A stretch of 28,421 nt of DNA from a virus, in the IMG/VR virus record IMGVR_UViG_3300009285_001633, positions 1-28,421 of that record; one strand, 5' to 3'. Position numbers and translations under genes: made by a program. Shown here piece by piece: positions 6,460-28,141 of this stretch (positions are counted from its first letter, which is position 1; every line of letters starts with the position of its first letter). The notes below the pieces were generated by a model that worked only from the letters and a program-made list of their open reading frames with translations, was not told where the DNA came from and ran no database searches.

Positions 6460-6909
6460 TTATTCCTCTGATTGTTTTGATTTTTTGGAACGTTTGCCAA
6501 TTTTTACTTTCTCAATCATTGGGTCAAATTTTGTTTCCGGCATTTTAACAACCGGCGCTATTCCGACTTCGCTATCAAACAAAAGCGCATTTTTAACTTC
6601 TGTAAGATCATTGCGTGTAATAATATTCTGTTCATTTATTCTCCATTTTTCTCGACCATTATCATCGAGCCCTTCAAACTTTTCTTGTAAAAGTTCAAGG
6701 TTTTTCATTCGGCAAATTTTATCTGCCAAATGTTTAGCGATATGATTCGCTAATGGTTCAGGCAATATTTTCTTTTCGCCTGATTTTAATGTTTGTGGCT
6801 TACCACCATACAAACACTCAAAATCCTCAATTGTTGGATTAAATACGCCCTTGACTCGATTTGGATCGTTATCAAAAGGTATTTTTTCCAATGGTGTAAA
6901 TTCCGCCAT
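6460..6909 (-). CDS. Hypothetical structural-operon protein (149 aa)
   Basis: ATG at 6909. It is a soluble, charged protein without signal or membrane segments. The N-terminal part (PFDNDPNRVKGVFNP) reads like an extended arm, the middle is helical, and the C-terminus is strongly basic (VKIGKRSKKSKQ), which could contact DNA or other head proteins. It lies between the decoration-like protein and the adaptor. I do not recognise the family. A minor head protein or an assembly factor would fit its place. Confidence 0.7.
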   Translation of the reverse strand: MAEFTPLEKIPFDNDPNRVKGVFNPTIEDFECLYGGKPQTLKSGEKKILPEPLANHIAKHLADKICRMKNLELLQEKFEGLDDNGREKWRINEQNIITRNDLTEVKNALLFDSEVGIAPVVKMPETKFDPMIEKVKIGKRSKKSKQSEE

Positions 6910-8298: not shown

Positions 8299-8349
8299 CC
8301 CCGTAGGGTCTTAACTCCTCCCTGAGCTATAACTCCGTAGAATTAAGCT
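8299..8349 (-). other. Two UACG-loop hairpins at the 3' end of the capsid gene
   Basis: Read on the minus strand, AGCTTAATTC-TACG-GAGTTATAGCT (8349-8325) folds into a stem capped by a TACG tetraloop and covers the capsid stop codon. CCC-TACG-GGG (8308-8299) is a second, short one. The segment also holds three copies of GGAGTTA (TAACTCC on the plus strand). UNCG-type loops are very stable. They may protect the abundant capsid mRNA or limit read-through; there is no T-run. Confidence 0.5.
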
Positions 8350-9320
8350 GTAACTCCTTTTGATTTCGCATGTCGTGCCGGACGTTTTTGTGTTAATTGT
8401 CCATACATCAAAATAAATCCAACTTGCCCATCTTGATCGTGCGGTTCGCGCATTGGAGTAACTGTAAAGCCGGAGGCATCTGTAGGATGTACCGGGTGAT
8501 CTCCAACAAACAAATCAAGATAACGAGTATTTAAGAAGAACATATCACCAGATGTACAATATTCATCAGCAATAACTTCCGCACCACGATACATTAACTT
8601 GCTAAATGAACCATCAGCAGTAGCAGAACCAGTAAATCTCTGATTAGGTAATAGCAATGCTTCATAAGCATTTTGTACTGTTTCGGTTGTAACAAGCAAA
8701 TCAACTGATTCGGCGCCACGGCCTGACGAAGCGGCTGAATATTGAGTGGCCATATGAGCCAAAGTCAAAGAGCCGACAGCGCTTGATACTGTGGAATTAA
8801 ACCAAGTATAGGTTGCTAATGTGATATCGCCAAGACTTGTGACGTCTGTGCCATCATCAACTAACGCGCGAAGTCCAAGCAAGTCTTTTGAACCATTGCC
8901 TGAACCATCAGCAAATACCATTGTTGAAATGTTATTTTTAAATGTTTCTTTTGCTTCTTCCATATCTTGCTTTAACATATTCACAACAGTTTCCGTACCA
9001 CCTGATTTGCCACCATTTTTAAACAACTCAACATTGCTAACTACGATCGGAGCATAAACTTGCTTCCAATCATATTCAGCGCGAGTGCGTGTATCCTGTA
9101 AATCAGTATCCAATACCTCAAGACCGGAATAAGAACCGCCATTGGTATTAAATTTATATGTAACAGGAACGTGAATTTGAGAACCACCAACAGTTAACTT
9201 TTTAGCTTTGGCTAATAGTTTGCCAAAGAAAGGCATTTCCTTTTTTAACTGATGGACAACTGCAGGCAATACGTAATCACGTGTGATTGACGTAAGGCGT
9301 GCGTAATCGGTAACCGCCAT
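8343..9320 (-). CDS. Major capsid protein, HK97 fold (325 aa)
   Basis: ATG at 9320. The N-terminus (LTSITRDYVLPAVVHQLKKEMPFFGKLL) matches the opening helix of podovirus and siphovirus HK97-type capsid proteins, followed by an extended-loop region (GGSQIHVPVTYKFNTNGGSYSG) and the block YDWKQVYAPIVVSNVELFKNGG common to this family. The A-domain part includes SVDLLVTTETVQNAYEALLLPNQRF and the C-terminus EVIADEYCTSGDMFFLNTRYLDL. Length and position right after the scaffold gene are as expected. It forms the icosahedral shell. Confidence 0.88.
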   Translation of the reverse strand: MAVTDYARLTSITRDYVLPAVVHQLKKEMPFFGKLLAKAKKLTVGGSQIHVPVTYKFNTNGGSYSGLEVLDTDLQDTRTRAEYDWKQVYAPIVVSNVELFKNGGKSGGTETVVNMLKQDMEEAKETFKNNISTMVFADGSGNGSKDLLGLRALVDDGTDVTSLGDITLATYTWFNSTVSSAVGSLTLAHMATQYSAASSGRGAESVDLLVTTETVQNAYEALLLPNQRFTGSATADGSFSKLMYRGAEVIADEYCTSGDMFFLNTRYLDLFVGDHPVHPTDASGFTVTPMREPHDQDGQVGFILMYGQLTQKRPARHAKSKGVTA

Positions 9321-12593: not shown

Positions 12594-14039
12594 TTATTTA
12601 TAATTTAAATCGCCCCATTCAGCTTGCGCTTTTTTAAATAAATCCTCTGCGTTTAGGGGTCTCGCCGGAATGACTGGTTTTGGCTCTGGAAGCTTTTTAT
12701 TAAATGGCTCATTCAAAGCCATAAATCCATATCTTACGCTATCAACTGCATCATCAGCACCATCAGTATCTAAATCTTCACTATCATCTTTGTAAACTTG
12801 CAAAGGAATTGTTCTTATTAAATTTGTACAGTTTTTAAAAATCTGCCACCTTGTTTTTGTTTTACCTTGCCCATCAGTATCGTATTTAAAATAACCACGC
12901 ATTAAGTTCCAACCATTAACTCGGCTATGAGCACCCTTGTGAACCAAGCGAATAGAGCAATCAAACTTATTATCCTCAAATACCTCACGCATTTGCGCCA
13001 TTACCGAACGCCCTGACTCTTGTCCAACATTAGCTATGTTATTATCAGCCACTAACCATTCAATTTTTTCATTGTTATTGACTACAAATATCGCTTTTGC
13101 AAGCATTTCGCCGGTATGTTCTCTCACGAATATCTCACGATATGTGTAAACTTTGCCAGTTATTGGATCAATAGCATGCCAATAAACAGCCGCGTAGCCC
13201 TTATCTTCTGTGTTCGAATGGTATCCATAGTCAAGCGATATATATCTTTGCCACGCAATGGGTAATTCAAACGGCTCACAAGTATGAACCCTCTCCTCAA
13301 ACTCTGTAAAATACTGCCCGGCAAATACAGTCCAATCGCCAAATAAATACGCGCGCTTCATCTTTTCAGGCATTGATTCTAATTGTTTTCTGTAACTTAC
13401 GGCGAAGAATGGATTATCTGTCGGTAATGCTTTAACATAAAAAAACTCTTCTGCTTCCGTTTCGTTCTCATCATACTGCCTATCCATCCATAGCTTCTTA
13501 ACCCAACCGTGTCCTATCTGCCCCGGATTTGTTGCGGCCACAAACCTTGTATCTTCAATGCCCGGCCATCTTAAACGCAATCGCAACATGTCAAATACCT
13601 GCTTATTATTCATCGTTAGCTCATCAACAGCCACCAACACGAACTCTGATGACAGATATTTGCTTGGATCGTCCAAGTTCCTTAAAGATAATACCCCACT
13701 TCCATATTGCGATTTGATGTGAAAACCAAGCCCATGCTCTTTGCTCTCTTTAAGCGTTCCAAGCCATTGCGGATATTCATAAGCCATTCGCGAAATGTGT
13801 CTATCTCTTAAACTTGGATAATCTTCACAAAATAATCCGGCGCGTATTCCACGTTGCTTTGTAACATTAAACCATTTTAACAATTTTATTATTGGATACC
13901 ATCTTAACCAATACGACTTTCCCGGCCCCGCTGAACCACCATACAGTAAATATCTATACTTATCTGCCATCTCTGTCGCGTGTTTTTGTTTTTCAAAGAA
14001 ATGGACAAGTTCTGACATCTTAACCGTCTGCTTATCCAT
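12594..14039 (-). CDS. terL: Terminase large subunit (481 aa)
   Basis: The start chosen is the ATG at 14039 (MDKQTVKM); a TTG at 14051 would overlap the terS stop. The ATPase half shows Walker A GGSAGPGKS at about 34-42, Walker B LVAVDE at 135-140 and the coupling motif AATNPGQ at 168-174. The nuclease half shows acidic residues expected for the RNase H-like fold: YISLDYGY (D270), WLVADNNI near 340 and the C-terminal DTDGADDAVDSVRYG. It pumps DNA into the procapsid through the portal and cuts the concatemer. It lies between terS and portal as usual. Confidence 0.95.
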   Translation of the reverse strand: MDKQTVKMSELVHFFEKQKHATEMADKYRYLLYGGSAGPGKSYWLRWYPIIKLLKWFNVTKQRGIRAGLFCEDYPSLRDRHISRMAYEYPQWLGTLKESKEHGLGFHIKSQYGSGVLSLRNLDDPSKYLSSEFVLVAVDELTMNNKQVFDMLRLRLRWPGIEDTRFVAATNPGQIGHGWVKKLWMDRQYDENETEAEEFFYVKALPTDNPFFAVSYRKQLESMPEKMKRAYLFGDWTVFAGQYFTEFEERVHTCEPFELPIAWQRYISLDYGYHSNTEDKGYAAVYWHAIDPITGKVYTYREIFVREHTGEMLAKAIFVVNNNEKIEWLVADNNIANVGQESGRSVMAQMREVFEDNKFDCSIRLVHKGAHSRVNGWNLMRGYFKYDTDGQGKTKTRWQIFKNCTNLIRTIPLQVYKDDSEDLDTDGADDAVDSVRYGFMALNEPFNKKLPEPKPVIPARPLNAEDLFKKAQAEWGDLNYK

Positions 14040-14044
14040 AAATT

Positions 14045-14320
14045 TTAGCAATCAACCGATAAATAAATTGGGGAATCTTCATCACCACTATGTTTAATTC
14101 TATCCGGCGCTTTACTGTTTAAAATATTTGCCGCTTTAATTGCCATGTCGCGCTCATATTGTATCTCGCTCTTTGCGCCTTTGCGGACAGTAGCAATTAG
14201 AAAATCAATAACTTCCGGCAATACAGCATCAAGTTTTGTAAAATACGCCTGCTCTCTATGAGCTGGTTTTCTTCCGCTTCTTCCTTTCTTTCCAAATAAT
14301 GTTCCGCTTGTATTAGCCAT
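14045..14320 (-). CDS. Terminase small subunit candidate (91 aa)
   Basis: ATG at 14320. It has a basic N-terminal arm (TLFGKKGRSGRKPAHREQ) resembling the start of several small phage terminases, a helical middle (LDAVLPEVIDFLIATVRKGAKSEIQYERDMAIKAANILNSKAPDR) and a short acidic tail. It directly precedes terL with 5 bases between. DNA recognition for packaging is inferred from position, size and the basic arm; no clear helix-turn-helix can be asserted. Confidence 0.7.
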   Translation of the reverse strand: MANTSGTLFGKKGRSGRKPAHREQAYFTKLDAVLPEVIDFLIATVRKGAKSEIQYERDMAIKAANILNSKAPDRIKHSGDEDSPIYLSVDC

Positions 14321-14452: not shown

Positions 14453-14776
14453 TTAATGTACAAATCTACTTGTCATTGATCCACGTTTCGCCTGCCACCC
14501 GGCCATTTCTAATTTCTCATCAACAGTTTGTTTTTCAATTTCCATTTTCTTTTTTTCCTCATTGATTCGTTTCACACTATCAGGATATATTCGCACAAAT
14601 CTTTTATCCCACAATTGTAATGTGTCGATACTATGCTCAATAGCATATTCATTCCTTGCATCATGCTTTGAAAATCTTTTTTTCTCACCACACTCCGAAC
14701 ACTCCTCAAAAGTATAATTCTCATCTTGCTTAATAACTTCGAATGTATGACTAAATTCTCTACACTTCGCTTTCAT
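14453..14776 (-). CDS. Small CxxC (zinc-ribbon-like) protein (107 aa)
   Basis: The start chosen is the ATG at 14776 (MKAKCREF); the frame extends to a TTG at 14785. It overlaps the upstream gene by 17 bases. A Cys at residue 5 and a His follow at the N-terminus, then CSEC near residue 27, which could bind zinc together. The C-terminal half is helical and charged (SVKRINEEKKKMEIEKQTVDEKLEMAG). Second gene of the leftward transcript after the terminator; could be a late regulator, not recognised. Confidence 0.65.
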   Translation of the reverse strand: MKAKCREFSHTFEVIKQDENYTFEECSECGEKKRFSKHDARNEYAIEHSIDTLQLWDKRFVRIYPDSVKRINEEKKKMEIEKQTVDEKLEMAGWQAKRGSMTSRFVH

Positions 14777-14966
14777 AAATTTCAATTTTTCTACCCATAT
14801 AAAATAACTTCTCTTTTTGTATCATATCATTAAAACTTGCCGGCGCGCTATTAAAATGATATTTATCAAAATAATCATAAACTTTACGCGCTTGGTCAGT
14901 TGTTAATTTCAAAACTTGCGCCTTTGTATTTTCCTCAATCATTTTTTCTAATAATTTTATAATCAT
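14760..14966 (-). CDS. First small protein of the leftward operon (68 aa)
   Basis: ATG at 14966, only about 5 bases beyond the T-run of the terminator at 14971-14995. Helical and amphipathic (MIIKLLEKMIEENTKAQVLKLTTDQARKVYDYFDKYHF). No family recognised. Because it is the first gene behind a terminator that late transcription has to cross, it is a reasonable place for a control protein. Confidence 0.6.
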   Translation of the reverse strand: MIIKLLEKMIEENTKAQVLKLTTDQARKVYDYFDKYHFNSAPASFNDMIQKEKLFYMGRKIEIYESEV

Positions 14967-14970
14967 AATT

Positions 14971-14995
14971 TAAAAAAGACGCAAAAAAAGCGTCT
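14971..14995 (-). terminator. Intrinsic terminator ahead of the leftward genes
   Basis: AGACGC pairs with GCGTCT across a 7-base T loop (14995-14977), followed on the minus strand by five further T before an A. It lies about 10 bases before the first leftward start codon and about 150 bases after the leftward promoter. On the plus strand no T-run follows, so it works leftward. Confidence 0.75.
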
Positions 14996-15126
14996 ATAAA
15001 ATATCTTCCTGAATTGAATTATACCGCCACATAAAGCACGTATGCGGGGCGTAAAATTCGCTCCTAAATTCTCATTACCGTTATGGCTTGTCCTCCATAA
15101 CGAATAATGAAAAATTAATCACCAAT
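14971..15126 (-). ncRNA. Structured late leader RNA (about 150 nt), 6S-like by arrangement
   Basis: The transcript would start near 15126 and end at the terminator. It folds into three hairpins. First, CATTA/TAATG plus CGTTATGG/CCATAACG (15109-15073) with loop AGGACAAG. Second, a bulged hairpin at 15059-15016 built from GAATT/AATTC, TAC/GTA and CCGCATA/TATGTGG. Third, the terminator. No coding frame of note is seen. In lambda, the late promoter pR' likewise makes a short terminated RNA until the antiterminator Q lets polymerase through; HK022 put RNA is another model. That it acts this way here is inference. Confidence 0.6.
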
Positions 15127-15132
15127 AATTTA

Positions 15133-15161
15133 ATATTATCATATCCCAAATTAAAAGTCAA
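15133..15161 (-). promoter_or_regulatory. Leftward (late) promoter
   Basis: On the minus strand, TTGACT (15161-15156), a 17-base spacer and TAATAT (15138-15133) with TGA before it as an extended -10. The geometry is ideal for a housekeeping sigma factor. It drives the structured leader and, if the terminator is crossed, the structural genes. Confidence 0.7.
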
Positions 15162-15186: not shown

Positions 15187-15195
15187 TTATCCACA
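15187..15195 (+). promoter_or_regulatory. DnaA-box-like site
   Basis: TTATCCACA matches the TTATNCACA consensus exactly. It lies between the divergent promoters. A longer stretch around it (TAAAAAAAGTTATCCACAG) is repeated inverted at 21209-21225, ahead of another promoter. A few such boxes are expected by chance in a window of this size and composition. Confidence 0.45.
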
Positions 15196-15228
15196 GGGGT
15201 ATTTATTTTGCTATGTTATGCGTATTTA

Positions 15229-15248
15229 TCAAGCCACCGACGGCTTGA
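15229..15248 (+). promoter_or_regulatory. Palindromic operator over the -35 box
   Basis: TCAAGCC-N6-GGCTTGA, a 7-bp inverted repeat whose right arm overlaps the -35 hexamer at 15245. The core AAGCCACCGACGGCTT occurs once more as its exact reverse complement at 21265-21280, again over a -35 box. A repressor dimer is expected to bind both. Confidence 0.65.
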
Positions 15249-15273
15249 CAAGTATATAAAAGTATGGTATAAT
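15245..15273 (+). promoter_or_regulatory. Rightward early promoter
   Basis: TTGACA (15245-15250), 17 bases, TATAAT (15268-15273) preceded by TGG as extended -10. Consensus in both boxes, so strong unless repressed through the overlapping palindrome. It starts the early transcript near 15280. Confidence 0.85.
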
Positions 15274-15279
15274 AATTTT

Positions 15280-15422
15280 AGAGTTGATAAAATTTCAACT
15301 CATCGGAGCGGTAACGACTACTCGGACAATGTGAACTTGTTTACATATCGCCTGAATAATCCGTTATCGTTTTACGAGAGTGGTATGGTAAATATCCGCC
15401 ATATCACTTTCACCCGAAAGGG
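15280..15422 (+). ncRNA. Folded early leader RNA
   Basis: The expected RNA begins with a 7-bp hairpin at its very 5' end, GAGTTGA/TCAACTC (15281-15301). A long-range stem CGGTAACG/CGTTATCG (15309-15316 with 15362-15369) encloses the hairpin ATGTGAA/TTTACAT. Then comes a 9-bp hairpin GTGGTATGG/CCATATCAC (15380-15407) and CTTTC/GAAAG. No T-run follows. An open frame crosses this region from 15208, but its first part precedes the transcription start, so it is not taken as a gene. Cis-acting roles such as antitermination or a regulatory switch are possible. Confidence 0.55.
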
Positions 15423-15444
15423 ATTTATTTACAATATTAAAAAT

Positions 15445-15555
15445 ATGAACAAAAAACTATTATATTTTTTTGGAGATATTGAACTTTTATTCAACCGCTT
15501 GTCCCGCAAACTCCGCAATGAGATTAAATGGTATAAGTGGTATTATTCAAGATAA
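15445..15555 (+). CDS. Possible short peptide gene (36 aa)
   Basis: ATG at 15445, the first start after the structured leader, ending TAA at 15553-15555, one base before the next gene. The peptide starts MNKKLLYFFGDIELLF and is basic and aromatic in its second half. There is no clear ribosome-binding site, but most early genes here lack one too. It could couple translation to the next gene or be non-coding. Confidence 0.35.
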   Translation: MNKKLLYFFGDIELLFNRLSRKLRNEIKWYKWYYSR

Positions 15556-15556
15556 T

Positions 15557-16051
15557 ATGAAAAAAGAATTTATACAAAATGCCATTAAAAATGGCTACGA
15601 TAATAACCGTTGTAATGGTTGGGATTGGATACTAGCGAATTTATCTGAATTGGATTATATTTTTCAAACAGAAGAATACAAAAAATGTAAAGGAATGAAA
15701 TTTAAATGTATGCCGTTATTGATTAAAAATGATGTTTTAACAGAATTGGAAACAAGAGTATTGGAAACAGCGTGGTTTTGTAATAATAAACGCGTCCACG
15801 AACTGGAAGAAAAAGATAAAATAAAAAAACTAAATGAAATGGGGTTTTACAACATTGAAAGTGATGAAAAATATGATAAAAAGAAAGTGGAATTTTATAA
15901 AAATAATTCAGATGATTTTTTTGGCGGTATAACAAAGTATGTTGGAAAATTAAAATGGTCACCAGTTGATAAACGTCTAATGGTAATGAAATCAAAACAT
16001 AGACGAAGAGGTTGGTGGATTGACAAAGATATTTATGTTAAATTTTTATGA
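15557..16051 (+). CDS. Hypothetical early protein (164 aa)
   Basis: The start chosen is the ATG at 15557 (MKKEFIQNAIKNG); the frame is open upstream to 15470 but that start would overlap the short peptide. The protein is charged with several scattered cysteines (NNRCNGWDW, KKCKGMKFKCM) and a basic C-terminus (KSKHRRRGWWIDKDIYVKFL). No family recognised. It is the first sizeable gene of the early transcript, so an early host-takeover or regulatory role is possible. Confidence 0.7.
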   Translation: MKKEFIQNAIKNGYDNNRCNGWDWILANLSELDYIFQTEEYKKCKGMKFKCMPLLIKNDVLTELETRVLETAWFCNNKRVHELEEKDKIKKLNEMGFYNIESDEKYDKKKVEFYKNNSDDFFGGITKYVGKLKWSPVDKRLMVMKSKHRRRGWWIDKDIYVKFL

Positions 16052-16215
16052 ACATTATAATAAATAAAACAATCCCTCAATGTGAATTATGCGGAGAAGA
16101 ATGTTTTGACGAAACCAATAATAATTTGGTGGAGGATTACGAAAGTATTGACGAAAATAAGAGATGTATTGGGTGTTATCAAGAGTGGGGTGATAGTTGG
16201 CCGGATAGGGTATAG
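16048..16215 (+). CDS. Tiny zinc-ribbon protein (55 aa)
   Basis: ATG at 16048 overlaps the previous stop as ATGA, so it is translationally coupled. It has CELC at residues 12-15 and CIGC at 40-43, a classic four-cysteine zinc ribbon, in an otherwise acidic protein. One of about ten such small proteins in this genome. Possibly a binder of RNA polymerase, RNA or another protein; unproven. Confidence 0.65.
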   Translation: MNIIINKTIPQCELCGEECFDETNNNLVEDYESIDENKRCIGCYQEWGDSWPDRV

Positions 16216-16216
16216 T

Positions 16217-16225
16217 TGTGTATAA
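16217..16225 (-). promoter_or_regulatory. DnaA-box-like site
   Basis: TGTGTATAA on the plus strand, the complement of TTATACACA, an exact match to TTATNCACA. It sits 7 bases before the -35 box of the promoter at 16233. Chance occurrence cannot be ruled out. Confidence 0.4.
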
Positions 16226-16232
16226 CTCACTT

Positions 16233-16261
16233 TTGACTTTTTGATTATTTTGTGGTATAGT
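16233..16261 (+). promoter_or_regulatory. Promoter ahead of the replication module
   Basis: TTGACT (16233-16238), 17 bases, TATAGT (16256-16261) with TGG before it. Same layout as the promoters at 15245 and 21279. It starts the pseudoknotted RNA that follows. Confidence 0.75.
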
Positions 16262-16267
16262 AGAGAA

Positions 16268-16392
16268 AATTTAATATATGCCTAAAATCTGTTCTCATAA
16301 TAAACTATCACAGGGTCAGCTTCTACACCGTAAAATCGGTGGCCGTTTGAACAGAGCGGTAGGCAAGAAGTTGACCCGATGATAGTTTTTTT
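16268..16392 (+). ncRNA. Pseudoknotted leader RNA ending in a T-run
   Basis: A long closing stem pairs AAACTATCA (16302-16310) with TGATAGTTT (16380-16388), then GGGTCAGCTTCT (16313-16324) with AGAAGTTGACCC (16366-16377) with one G-U. Inside are the hairpin CACCG-TAAAAT-CGGTG and the arm CCG...CGG (16343-16359). The loop of that arm, GAACAGA (16349-16355), is exactly complementary to TCTGTTC (16288-16294) upstream of the stem, giving a pseudoknot. Seven T end the closing stem, so the RNA may terminate here or act as an attenuator before the replication genes. Confidence 0.65.
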
Positions 16393-16395
16393 GTT

Positions 16396-16563
16396 ATGAA
16401 ATTAAACAAAAAATATTTTCTTCAAGGCAGCCATAAAAATTACCATATTTGTAATAATTGCGAAAAAGAAATTGAAGCGTGGTTTTATTATTGGAAAAAA
16501 GCTAATTTTACTTTATGTTTTAATTGTTTGGAAAAAATATGGACAAAACACAATTCCAAATAG
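16396..16563 (+). CDS. Tiny zinc-ribbon protein (55 aa)
   Basis: ATG at 16396, three bases after the T-run of the leader RNA; stop TAG at 16561-16563, overlapping the next gene by 25 bases. CNNC at residues 19-22 and CFNC at 41-44 form a zinc ribbon in a basic, aromatic protein. Its place as first gene behind a possible terminator, ahead of the replication genes, suggests regulation, but no family is recognised. Confidence 0.65.
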   Translation: MKLNKKYFLQGSHKNYHICNNCEKEIEAWFYYWKKANFTLCFNCLEKIWTKHNSK

Positions 16564-21208: not shown

Positions 21209-21217
21209 TGTGGATAA
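21209..21217 (-). promoter_or_regulatory. DnaA-box-like site
   Basis: TGTGGATAA, complement of TTATCCACA. Together with the adjacent ACTTTTTTTA it is the inverse copy of the sequence at 15179-15195. Confidence 0.45.
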
Positions 21218-21263: not shown

Positions 21264-21281
21264 CAAGCCGTCGGTGGCTTG
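21264..21281 (+). promoter_or_regulatory. Second copy of the palindromic operator
   Basis: AAGCCGTCGGTGGCTT (21265-21280) is the exact reverse complement of the operator core at 15231-15246 and overlaps the -35 box at 21279. The same repressor should control both transcripts. Confidence 0.65.
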
Positions 21282-25649: not shown

Positions 25650-26216
25650 ATGTCTATATCAAATTCAAAAAAAATCAACGAAGAAAATTCATACGGAGTT
25701 AATAGGTCAGACGGAGTTAATGGATCAGACGGAGTTAATTGGTCAGACGGAGTTAATACATCAAACGGAGTTAATGGGTCAGACGGAGTTAATGGGTCAA
25801 ACGGAGTTAATGGGTCAGACGGAGTTAATTGGTCAGACGGAGTTAATTGGTCAGACGGAGTTAATATATCATACGGAGTTATAAATTCTTTCGGAGTTGA
25901 TAAAGCTATTTTTTTAGCTGATAAAAAAAGAATATATAGTATTTTTGGTAAAGAAGTTAGCGAAGATAGATTTGATGAAGTAATGAATAAATTAAAAAGT
26001 TTTAAATGGTATCCGAAATTCAACAATGCTTTTGAACTTTATCTTAAAAATGGGAATGATTGGAAAAAAATAAACGCAGATGAAATAACCGACACATTGA
26101 AAGATTGGAAAAAACCATATAAAGCGTGGAAAGATATGCCAAAAGAAATGTTAGAATATATTCAGAGTTTAAAGGAGTTTGACGCTGTAATGTTTGAAAG
26201 GATAACAGGGATTTAG
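25650..26216 (+). CDS. Protein with a 6-residue repeat solenoid and a C-terminal domain (188 aa)
   Basis: ATG at 25650, stop TAG at 26214-26216. Residues 15-83 repeat SDGVNG/W/T every six residues, about twelve units. Aromatic or small residues alternate at the last position, so a beta-solenoid is likely. The C-terminal 100 residues form a separate helical domain (FGKEVSEDRFDEVMNKLKSFKWYPK, later DEITDTLKDWKKPYKAWKDMPKEMLEYI). After the TAG the frame stays open for 24 more codons (see the next feature). Function unknown; repeat proteins of this kind can act as DNA mimics or adhesins. Confidence 0.7.
   Translation: MSISNSKKINEENSYGVNRSDGVNGSDGVNWSDGVNTSNGVNGSDGVNGSNGVNGSDGVNWSDGVNWSDGVNISYGVINSFGVDKAIFLADKKRIYSIFGKEVSEDRFDEVMNKLKSFKWYPKFNNAFELYLKNGNDWKKINADEITDTLKDWKKPYKAWKDMPKEMLEYIQSLKEFDAVMFERITGI
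25694..25898 (+). repeat. 18-bp tandem repeat within a gene
   Basis: The heptamer CGGAGTT recurs twelve times at exactly 18-base spacing, starting at 25694 and ending with the copy at 25892; the last two copies diverge. The unit is about TCAGACGGAGTTAATGGG. Copy number may vary by replication slippage without changing the frame. Confidence 0.9.
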
Positions 26217-27136: not shown

Positions 27137-27327
27137 TCCTTCCGTTCTTCCTTGTTAAATTGGCGAGAAGCTATTAATCTAATCCAGCTGGATACGGCTT
27201 CAAAACCTCCGATATTCAAGGAAGAGCAGAGAGAATTAAATTAGTTTTTTCAAATTGCGGGCGTGCGTGTCCCATACACACAAGTGAGTAAGGGCAAACC
27301 CTTCTTGTCCACTTCGCCCCCGCTTTG
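27137..27327 (+). ncRNA. Folded leader of the GC-rich zinc-ribbon operon
   Basis: Two domains. The first (27144-27227) is closed by GTTCTTCCTTG/CAAGGAAGAGC (11 bp, one G-U) and holds GAAGC/GCTTC and the palindrome ATCCAGCTGGAT. The second (27251-27327) is closed by CAAA-GCGGG/CCCGC-TTTG and holds two arms: GTGCGTG/TACACAC-type, and AAGTG/CACTT with AAGGG-CAAA-CCCTT. GTGAGTAAGG in the second domain also occurs in the element at 24681-24690. A cis-regulatory leader is likely; class unknown. Confidence 0.5.
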
Positions 27328-27351
27328 AGAGAATTAACCAAAGGAGAAACA

Positions 27352-27504
27352 ATGGAAAGATTTATCATCACTCTGGTGAGTTTTTGCCACAGGTGTAACA
27401 AACTCCAACCCCACGATGTGTACGCTGGAATTTCACCAAGACAGTATGTTCATACTGCTGTCTGCAAAGTCTGCAAAACCAAAAAAGAAATAGCAATCGA
27501 TTAG
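27352..27504 (+). CDS. Zinc-ribbon protein 1 of the GC-rich operon (50 aa)
   Basis: ATG at 27352 with a strong ribosome-binding site AAAGGAG at 27340-27346. CHRC (12-15) and CKVC (38-41) make a zinc ribbon in a small basic protein. Unlike other genes here it has a good Shine-Dalgarno sequence and higher GC, so it looks imported. Confidence 0.65.
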   Translation: MERFIITLVSFCHRCNKLQPHDVYAGISPRQYVHTAVCKVCKTKKEIAID

Positions 27505-27513
27505 GAGATGGGA

Positions 27514-27684
27514 ATGAAAAACGTAGTTGACATCGTCAAAGGTGGCGAGGAGTTCAGTTGGTGTCCGAACTGCCGAGCTCATCGCTGGTTCTGGCTTCAC
27601 AACTACGTCAACGCCCACGGTGGAATCGTGAAGCAGGTCTACACGTGTTCCAAATGTGGCCACAACAAGGGGCAAAAGAAATGA
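27514..27684 (+). CDS. Zinc-ribbon protein 2 of the GC-rich operon (56 aa)
   Basis: The start chosen is the ATG at 27514, with AGGAG at 27503-27507; an in-frame ATG at 27508 is too near that site. CPNC (17-20) and CSKC (45-48) with basic residues form a zinc ribbon (HRWFWLHNYVNAHGG between). It overlaps the next gene as ATGA. Likely nucleic-acid binding by similarity of layout, not shown. Confidence 0.65.
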   Translation: MKNVVDIVKGGEEFSWCPNCRAHRWFWLHNYVNAHGGIVKQVYTCSKCGHNKGQKK

Positions 27685-27926
27685 GGTGGTGGTGCAAAAA
27701 GTGCAGGGACAATAAAAACTGGATACCCAATCACAAGGTAATGTACAGAAAGGGTAATCTGTACTACATCCAGCACGATTGTCCCGAGTGTTCCCAAAAA
27801 TGGGACGTGTCGTTTGATAGCTGGTCGTTTGATAACAGGCTGGCTTATCTCGGCATAACAATTAACAAGGAGGAATTGGAAATCAAAGAAAACCCGGCGC
27901 GGAAAGTCAGGAGGTATCGGAGATGA
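27681..27926 (+). CDS. Zinc-ribbon protein 3 of the GC-rich operon (81 aa)
   Basis: ATG at 27681, translationally coupled to the previous gene, and to the next by ATGA. CKKC (5-8) and CPEC (about 37-40) form a zinc ribbon with WIPNHKVMYRKGNLYYIQHD between them; the end is basic (NPARKVRRYRR). The frame is open upstream from 27558 but that belongs to the previous gene. Confidence 0.65.
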   Translation: MRWWCKKCRDNKNWIPNHKVMYRKGNLYYIQHDCPECSQKWDVSFDSWSFDNRLAYLGITINKEELEIKENPARKVRRYRR

Positions 27927-28129
27927 CCAGATGTGATTGCGGGTGCAATCAGTTCAGGCTTATGCTCATTCAGTCGGCGTACATTGACTATAAGTGGTGT
28001 ATTCCGATGTATTGTCAGGCCTGTGATTACGAACTCACCTTGCACGTTGACCAAACTGGTTATGATAAGCTCTATAATCAGAGCAACGGTAACGTGTGTA
28101 TCGTATCACTTGGAAAGGAGGAGAATTAA
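27923..28129 (+). CDS. Zinc-ribbon protein 4 of the GC-rich operon (68 aa)
   Basis: ATG at 27923 with AGGAGGT at 27909-27915. CDCGC (4-8) and CQAC (about 32-35) form the cysteine pairs, followed by a beta-type tail. The last codons contain AAAGGAGGAG (28114-28123), a ribosome-binding site with no gene behind it. Confidence 0.65.
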   Translation: MTRCDCGCNQFRLMLIQSAYIDYKWCIPMYCQACDYELTLHVDQTGYDKLYNQSNGNVCIVSLGKEEN

Positions 28130-28141
28130 AGTCAAAGGGTC

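Follow-up and report, generated by a model that had tools for sequence, protein, structure and literature searches.

In phage lambda, the late promoter pR′ produces a short terminated RNA (6S) until the antiterminator Q acts. The put RNA of phage HK022 acts on RNA polymerase without a phage protein, via the β′ zinc-binding domain. It is about 70 nt long, with two adjacent stems, and is present on both early transcripts (PMC9378689). The dfn leader of Bacillus velezensis is a proven antitermination leader, in which a UNCG-type hairpin, recognised by the NusG paralogue LoaP, and an intrinsic terminator stand ahead of a long operon (PMC12691694). In the case of conAn (pLS20) and canT (Tn916), an RNA leader with a terminator heads a long mobile-element operon (PMC8955417, PMC11658703). 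Little is known of how late genes are timed in uncultivated phages that do not follow lambda or T7, and the compact leader described here, with its compensatory changes and fixed terminator, offers a putative switch that is directly testable.

The window is the whole stretch of DNA that was analysed, a virus record of 28,421 bases with a GC content of 0.36; the virus is tailed-phage-like and uncultivated. The late leader region sits between two divergent operons: reading leftward from 14966 are the genes for packaging and the virion (large terminase, major capsid protein and further virion proteins), and reading rightward from 15445 are those for replication and recombination, i.e., an O-like initiator, a DnaB-like helicase, RusA and a YqaJ-type exonuclease. 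Shine–Dalgarno sites are near-absent from the phage genes of the window. A search with the terminase gave the relative L004, and a search with the capsid protein gave L101 (the same contig as L004), L102 and L103. The capsid protein is 78% identical to that of the window in L101 and about 70% identical in L102 and L103. Despite this, the large terminase of L102 and L103 is only 36% identical to that of the window, a mismatch which would point to recombination at the head of the late operon.

Structural genes had been said to follow the terminator directly, and this holds in part: terminase, capsid and virion genes do follow, but the first two genes of the operon encode a 68-amino acid protein and a zinc-ribbon protein, respectively (Table 1). 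The 68-amino acid protein has homologues in both L102 (L102:2675) and L103 (L103:2680), and L004 has a small ORF in the equivalent position. The CxxC zinc ribbon of the second protein has a weak match to the TNB domain of Cas12f1/TnpB (E 6e-4), which is below the cut-off.

Table 1. Positions of the features discussed in the text, in window coordinates.
Feature	Position	Strand	Details
Large terminase subunit, fourth gene of late operon	12594..14051	-	phrog_2, 6e-27
Major capsid protein	8343..9320	-	phrog_9953, 4.5e-53
Second late gene, zinc-ribbon protein	14453-14776	-	CxxC zinc ribbon; conserved in L004
First late gene, 68 aa, no assigned function	14760..14966	-	ATG 14966
Intrinsic terminator	14971..14995 (stem 14995-14977)	-	AGACGC-TTTTTTT-GCGTCT then TTTTTT
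Hairpin B	15024..15049	-	9-bp stem, one bulge; CCCCGCAUA ... UAUGUGGCGG
Single-stranded linker UUUAGGAGCGAAUUUUACG	15050..15068	-	Sequence-conserved (alignment with L004/L101)
Hairpin I	15069..15113	-	18-bp stem, one bulged U, 8-nt loop AGGACAAG
Late promoter, extended -10 (predicted)	15133..15161	-	-35 TTGACT 15161-15156, N17, -10 TAATAT 15138-15133, extended TG
DnaA-box-like site TTATCCACA, perfect	15187..15195	+	About 25 bp upstream of late -35
Divergent early promoter	15245..15273	+	TTGACA-N17-TATAAT, 12/12, extended -10
Early leader, several hairpins, no terminator	15280..15444	+	z -5.1 for 15279-15560
Replication operon promoter	16233..16261	+	TTGACT-N17-TATAGT, extended -10
Second leader with terminator	16268..16395	+	z -7.3; strongest fold of whole window

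The original prediction had proposed a leftward promoter, a folded leader and a terminator at this locus, and the positions of all three were confirmed by sequence and folding checks. On the minus strand, the promoter is followed by a folded leader of about 130 nt and then by an intrinsic terminator, which lies 10 nt ahead of ATG 14966. To call the promoter near-ideal was too strong, as it has nine of the 12 consensus bases together with the extended TG, and the perfect promoter is the divergent early one at 15245. Such sites number 38 in a 6-kb stretch (28.5 ± 4.9 in shuffles), so that the late promoter is unremarkable when taken alone. It is rendered credible by the conservation of its geometry across four phages: the pattern TNGAC(A/T)-N14-TGN-TANNNT is also found where the late operon begins in L004 (TTGACA-N17-TAGAAT, with identical TG geometry) and in L102 and L103 (TAGACA-N17-TATAAT with TG). 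Judged by these elements the promoter is of the sigma70 type, and transcription would start at about 15126. A promoter scan found no other leftward promoter of this kind ahead of the late genes. L004, L102 and L103 likewise have a TTATCCACA or TTATCCACT box, at about -18 to -26 relative to the late -35, and the window has four TTATNCACA sites where 1.8 are expected. The conservation of a DnaA-box-like site in four phages hints at a further tie to replication, which is only a lead. In L004 the site close upstream of the late promoter is at about 452-462, and the window has another DnaA-box-like TTATCCACA at 21209-21217.

The fold of the late leader has a predicted energy of -47.0 kcal/mol (z = -4.9), and none of 200 shuffles was as low. 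A z of about -4.9 is reached by about 1% of the 157-nt stretches across the window, so the fold alone is suggestive and it is covariation that decides. The linker between the two hairpins, including the last bases of hairpin I, has the consensus GAAUUNAGGAGCNAAUUUNA. The terminator had been described as a classic intrinsic one; it is indeed present, and it is conserved with three compensatory pairs, but its stem, with 6 bp and -8.1 kcal/mol and six T after it, is modest, and because the stem is short the terminator may leak. Terminator-like sites in 6 kb number four, against 3.8 by chance, i.e., there is no excess. An Rfam search of the whole window gave no match at E <= 1, including EAR, T-box and riboswitches, and a DNA similarity search of the late leader region against the phage collection gave no match. 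CsrA-type GGA sites in the loop were considered and rejected, since they are not conserved in L004, and the AGGAG in the linker is unlikely to be a ribosome site, since this phage does not use Shine–Dalgarno sites.

A covariance model built from the window leader alone was used to search 957 kb of related loci and found the L004/L101 leader at the same position (E 9.6e-8 over 957 kb). With models R1 and R2, searched over about 1 Mb of related loci, the only credible matches were the window and L101; a match in L175 (E 0.19) was judged to be chance, and a reverse-strand match in L101 (E 0.007) was the complement of the same hairpin. Thus, the leader covariation that had been proposed as a check was found in one relative. 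The alignment of window and L101, which consists of two sequences fitted to the structure and so favours the structure, has 33 pairs, with standard pairs in all 64 cells and 100% of the aligned pairs kept. Both sides have changed in nine pairs: six of the 18 in hairpin I, three of the six in the terminator and none in hairpin B. In hairpin I a further three pairs have changed on one side and none is broken; in hairpin B, two of the nine pairs have changed on one side and none is broken, which is weak covariation. No control shuffle out of 500 was as good, and versions of the structure slid along the alignment fell to 33–52% paired. Unless the RNA is under selection, it is difficult to account for 18 pairs of hairpin I remaining unbroken across strongly diverged sequence.

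The linker GAATTNAGGAGCNAATTTNA has been kept in sequence between the window and L004 while its flanks have diverged, and this conservation suggests that it could serve as a recognition site. An IUPAC pattern of the conserved linker had five matches over viral_contigs, the L004 contig being the one real match; the other four look like chance, having no promoter, terminator or homologous phage genes. The L004 leader is also folded (z -5.6), and its terminator (-8.0 kcal/mol) has an interrupted T tract; in both the window and L004, the terminator lies about 10–12 nt ahead of the first gene. In L004 the minimum-energy structure contains a competing pairing, GGAGC:GCUCC, which would be possible there as the main second hairpin, but in the window one of its pairs becomes A.C, and hairpin B is weakly preferred over it.

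In L102 and L103, the late leader is about 45 nt long and unfolded, with neither the hairpins nor the terminator, and is followed by the homologue of the 68-amino acid gene. Relatives lacking both hairpins and terminator had been named as an outcome that would count against the proposal: two of the three that span the operon head are of this kind, and L004 is not. As L102 and L103 have the same operon and the same kind of promoter without the terminator, the hairpin–terminator element is lineage-specific, and the putative switch is not essential in the group. When a host was sought among 380 genomes of the phylum to which the Roizmanbacteria terminase hit belongs, model R2 and the capsid profile matched nothing.

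How does this locus compare with the systems described above? It resembles LoaP/dfn in the succession of a small leader hairpin, an intrinsic terminator and a long operon, read-through in dfn being brought about by an RNA-bound factor. Unlike the UNCG-type hairpin of dfn, hairpin I has 18 bp and the loop AGGACAAG, and no NusG paralogue or KOW match was found among the window proteins searched. It resembles HK022 put in being a promoter-proximal folded phage RNA with two main stems, but it lies on the late transcript and has its own terminator. The comparison with put, drawn in the original prediction, fails on sequence: when putL and putR were located by inverted repeat in NC_002166, the late leader had only chance matches of 5–10 nt to them. 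Nor is the structure repeated in the early leader, as model R2 found no related copy on the early transcript (15200-16420), scoring at most 11.5 bits, on the opposite strand. With lambda pR′ it shares the anatomy for a short terminated RNA between late promoter and late genes, as far as can be known from sequence; the differences are the conserved RNA structure and the want of a recognisable Q-like gene among the early ORFs searched, and the analogy to pR′ and Q, also drawn originally, would leave the compensatory changes in the hairpin unexplained. Likened by description, conAn and canT differ in belonging to a plasmid or ICE of Gram-positive hosts, canT RNA being larger and the pLS20 operon of conAn having many internal terminators, unlike the late operon here. 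What was found is the general arrangement of an attenuator, in which an intrinsic terminator separates the promoter from the first gene; this terminator is conserved in L004. We class the late leader as an attenuator-type leader of what appears to be a new RNA family, separate from the put, Q and LoaP systems.

The terminator stands between the only good leftward promoter found and the first late gene, so the late genes can be expressed only if read-through is possible. On balance, the late leader is probably a cis-acting attenuator and antitermination leader of the late operon. Transcription from the late promoter would start early or constitutively and would by default end at the terminator, so that a short RNA of about 150 nt would be produced; a trans-acting factor would then recognise hairpin I, the linker or both as the RNA emerges, and its binding would allow RNA polymerase to read through into the late genes. 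The factor could be a protein encoded early by the phage, or an elongation factor of the host with an activity altered by infection. Among the window and early proteins searched, no Q, N or NusG-like gene was recognised (an unrecognised analogue is possible), so that an early protein, a host factor or the RNA acting alone may be responsible. If a protein is needed, there would be an unrecognised antiterminator among the early genes without assigned function. The conservation of RNA structure favours control at the level of RNA, and DNA loading of the Q type is less likely. By analogy, the style of mechanism would most resemble the RNA-loaded antitermination of lambda N/nut, of LoaP and the dfn hairpin, and of conAn and canT, rather than that of DNA-loaded Q. 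An energy-based terminator scan of the late operon found no convincing series of intergenic terminators; thus, local attenuation would suffice and processive antitermination would not be required. Of the late antitermination switch first proposed, the general idea survives, in that the terminator and the conserved folded RNA fit antitermination or attenuation, and the findings above count against the specific analogies to lambda and put.

Other explanations can be given for the same anatomy. The leader could be a processive antiterminator of RNA only, in the style of HK022 put or EAR, which would bind RNA polymerase directly and take it past adjacent and later terminators, the terminator itself merely stopping stray transcription not begun at the late promoter. 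This would be a new antiterminator RNA, and the order of promoter, folded RNA and terminator is that of the put, canT and conAn systems, with a structure conserved by compensation; it is nevertheless unlikely, given the lack of sequence similarity to putL/putR and of any Rfam match (EAR included), an early leader without a second copy, and the scarcity of convincing internal terminators. Moreover, a self-sufficient RNA beside its own terminator would provide no timing. A factor loaded on DNA, for its part, would have no need of an 18-bp RNA hairpin kept by compensation, and a Q family match is absent from the early genes searched. These points make it quite improbable that an early protein loads on the promoter DNA as at lambda pR′, with the RNA as a by-product like 6S RNA, even though the layout of a short terminated RNA ahead of the late genes is that of pR′ and a DnaA-box-like site is conserved immediately upstream of the promoter.

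Perhaps the terminated RNA of about 150 nt is itself the product, e.g. a trans-acting regulator, and the late genes are expressed by leaky read-through. The RNA is compact, promoter-driven and terminator-ended, and its conserved structure leaves a conserved linker exposed. We regard this as decidedly unlikely, since in both phages the RNA occupies the same place, heading the late operon, L102 and L103 keep the promoter alone in that role, and no other such leftward promoter was found ahead of the late genes. Translation could also be coupled to attenuation, if a ribosome on a short leader ORF ending at the terminator blocked folding of the terminator: L004 has an 18-codon ORF, with its ATG after AGGAG, which stops at the terminator base, and a 12-codon ORF of the window (MWRYNSIQEDIL) stops at the same point. 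However, the start codons are at different places, the window having ACG where L004 has ATG, and Shine–Dalgarno sites are almost never found on the phage genes, which leaves this very improbable.

The replication operon seems to have a leader and terminator of its own, so that the gating of operons by terminators looks like a general trait of this phage. The second leader has a long hairpin and a T run 2 nt ahead of ATG 16396, and its 5′ segment (16279-16294) is complementary to the apex of the terminator hairpin (16349-16365): UGCCUA-AAA-UCUGUUC with GAACAGA-GCGG-UAGGCA, at -18.9 kcal/mol, with 2 and 6 of 1000 shuffles as low. If the 5′ segment pairs before the 3′ arm has been transcribed, the terminator could be impeded. 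In L103, a different sequence of like design follows a TTGACT-N17-TATAAT promoter; there, ACATCGTCAAA pairs with the terminator-hairpin loop TTTGACGATGT (6 and 43 of 1000 shuffles as low), and the terminator hairpin precedes the next gene. This unit of L103/L187 lies on the reverse strand of L187, from about 10535 of the reverse complement. That the replication operon repeats the layout suggests that expression across the whole genome is gated by RNA, in contrast to cascades of sigma factors or repressors. Tentatively, and with rather low confidence, these leaders might represent a new class of phage antitermination RNA in uncultivated phages nearly without Shine–Dalgarno sites, in which folded leaders with terminators, close to the promoters, would gate both replication and late operons, and the release of each would depend on an RNA element of its own (in the late operon a hairpin with the linker; in the replication operon the pairing between 5′ segment and terminator apex).

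The early leader was rejected as a second copy of the late leader, with which it is not homologous; early leaders are folded in L102, L103 and L004 as well, that of L004 being a partial leader. In L102, a long early leader on the reverse strand at about 2500-2140 has four hairpins in a row, of which L103 keeps the first two with base changes and is missing the other two. The palindrome CAAGCCACCGACGGCTTG overlaps the -35 of the early promoter at 15245, and a third rightward promoter (21279), with the same operator palindrome, has a short leader. In general form, CAAGCC(RY)CG(RY)GGCTTG occurs at 15230-15247 and 21264-21281, overlapping the -35 of two perfect TTGACA/TATAAT promoters, and is a probable phage repressor operator.

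Elsewhere in the window, the region 27145-28130 has a higher GC content, at least one strong Shine–Dalgarno site (AGGAGG before 27923) and small zinc-ribbon-like genes; with the rest of the genome almost without Shine–Dalgarno sites, it may be a recent import or an assembly chimera. Among the early-strand genes, a collagen-like protein with 18-nt repeats is encoded at 25650-26216 (+). The ORF 6460-6909 contains, at 6600-6907 (-), an RNA fold predicted to be very stable (z -5.6 to -7.0).
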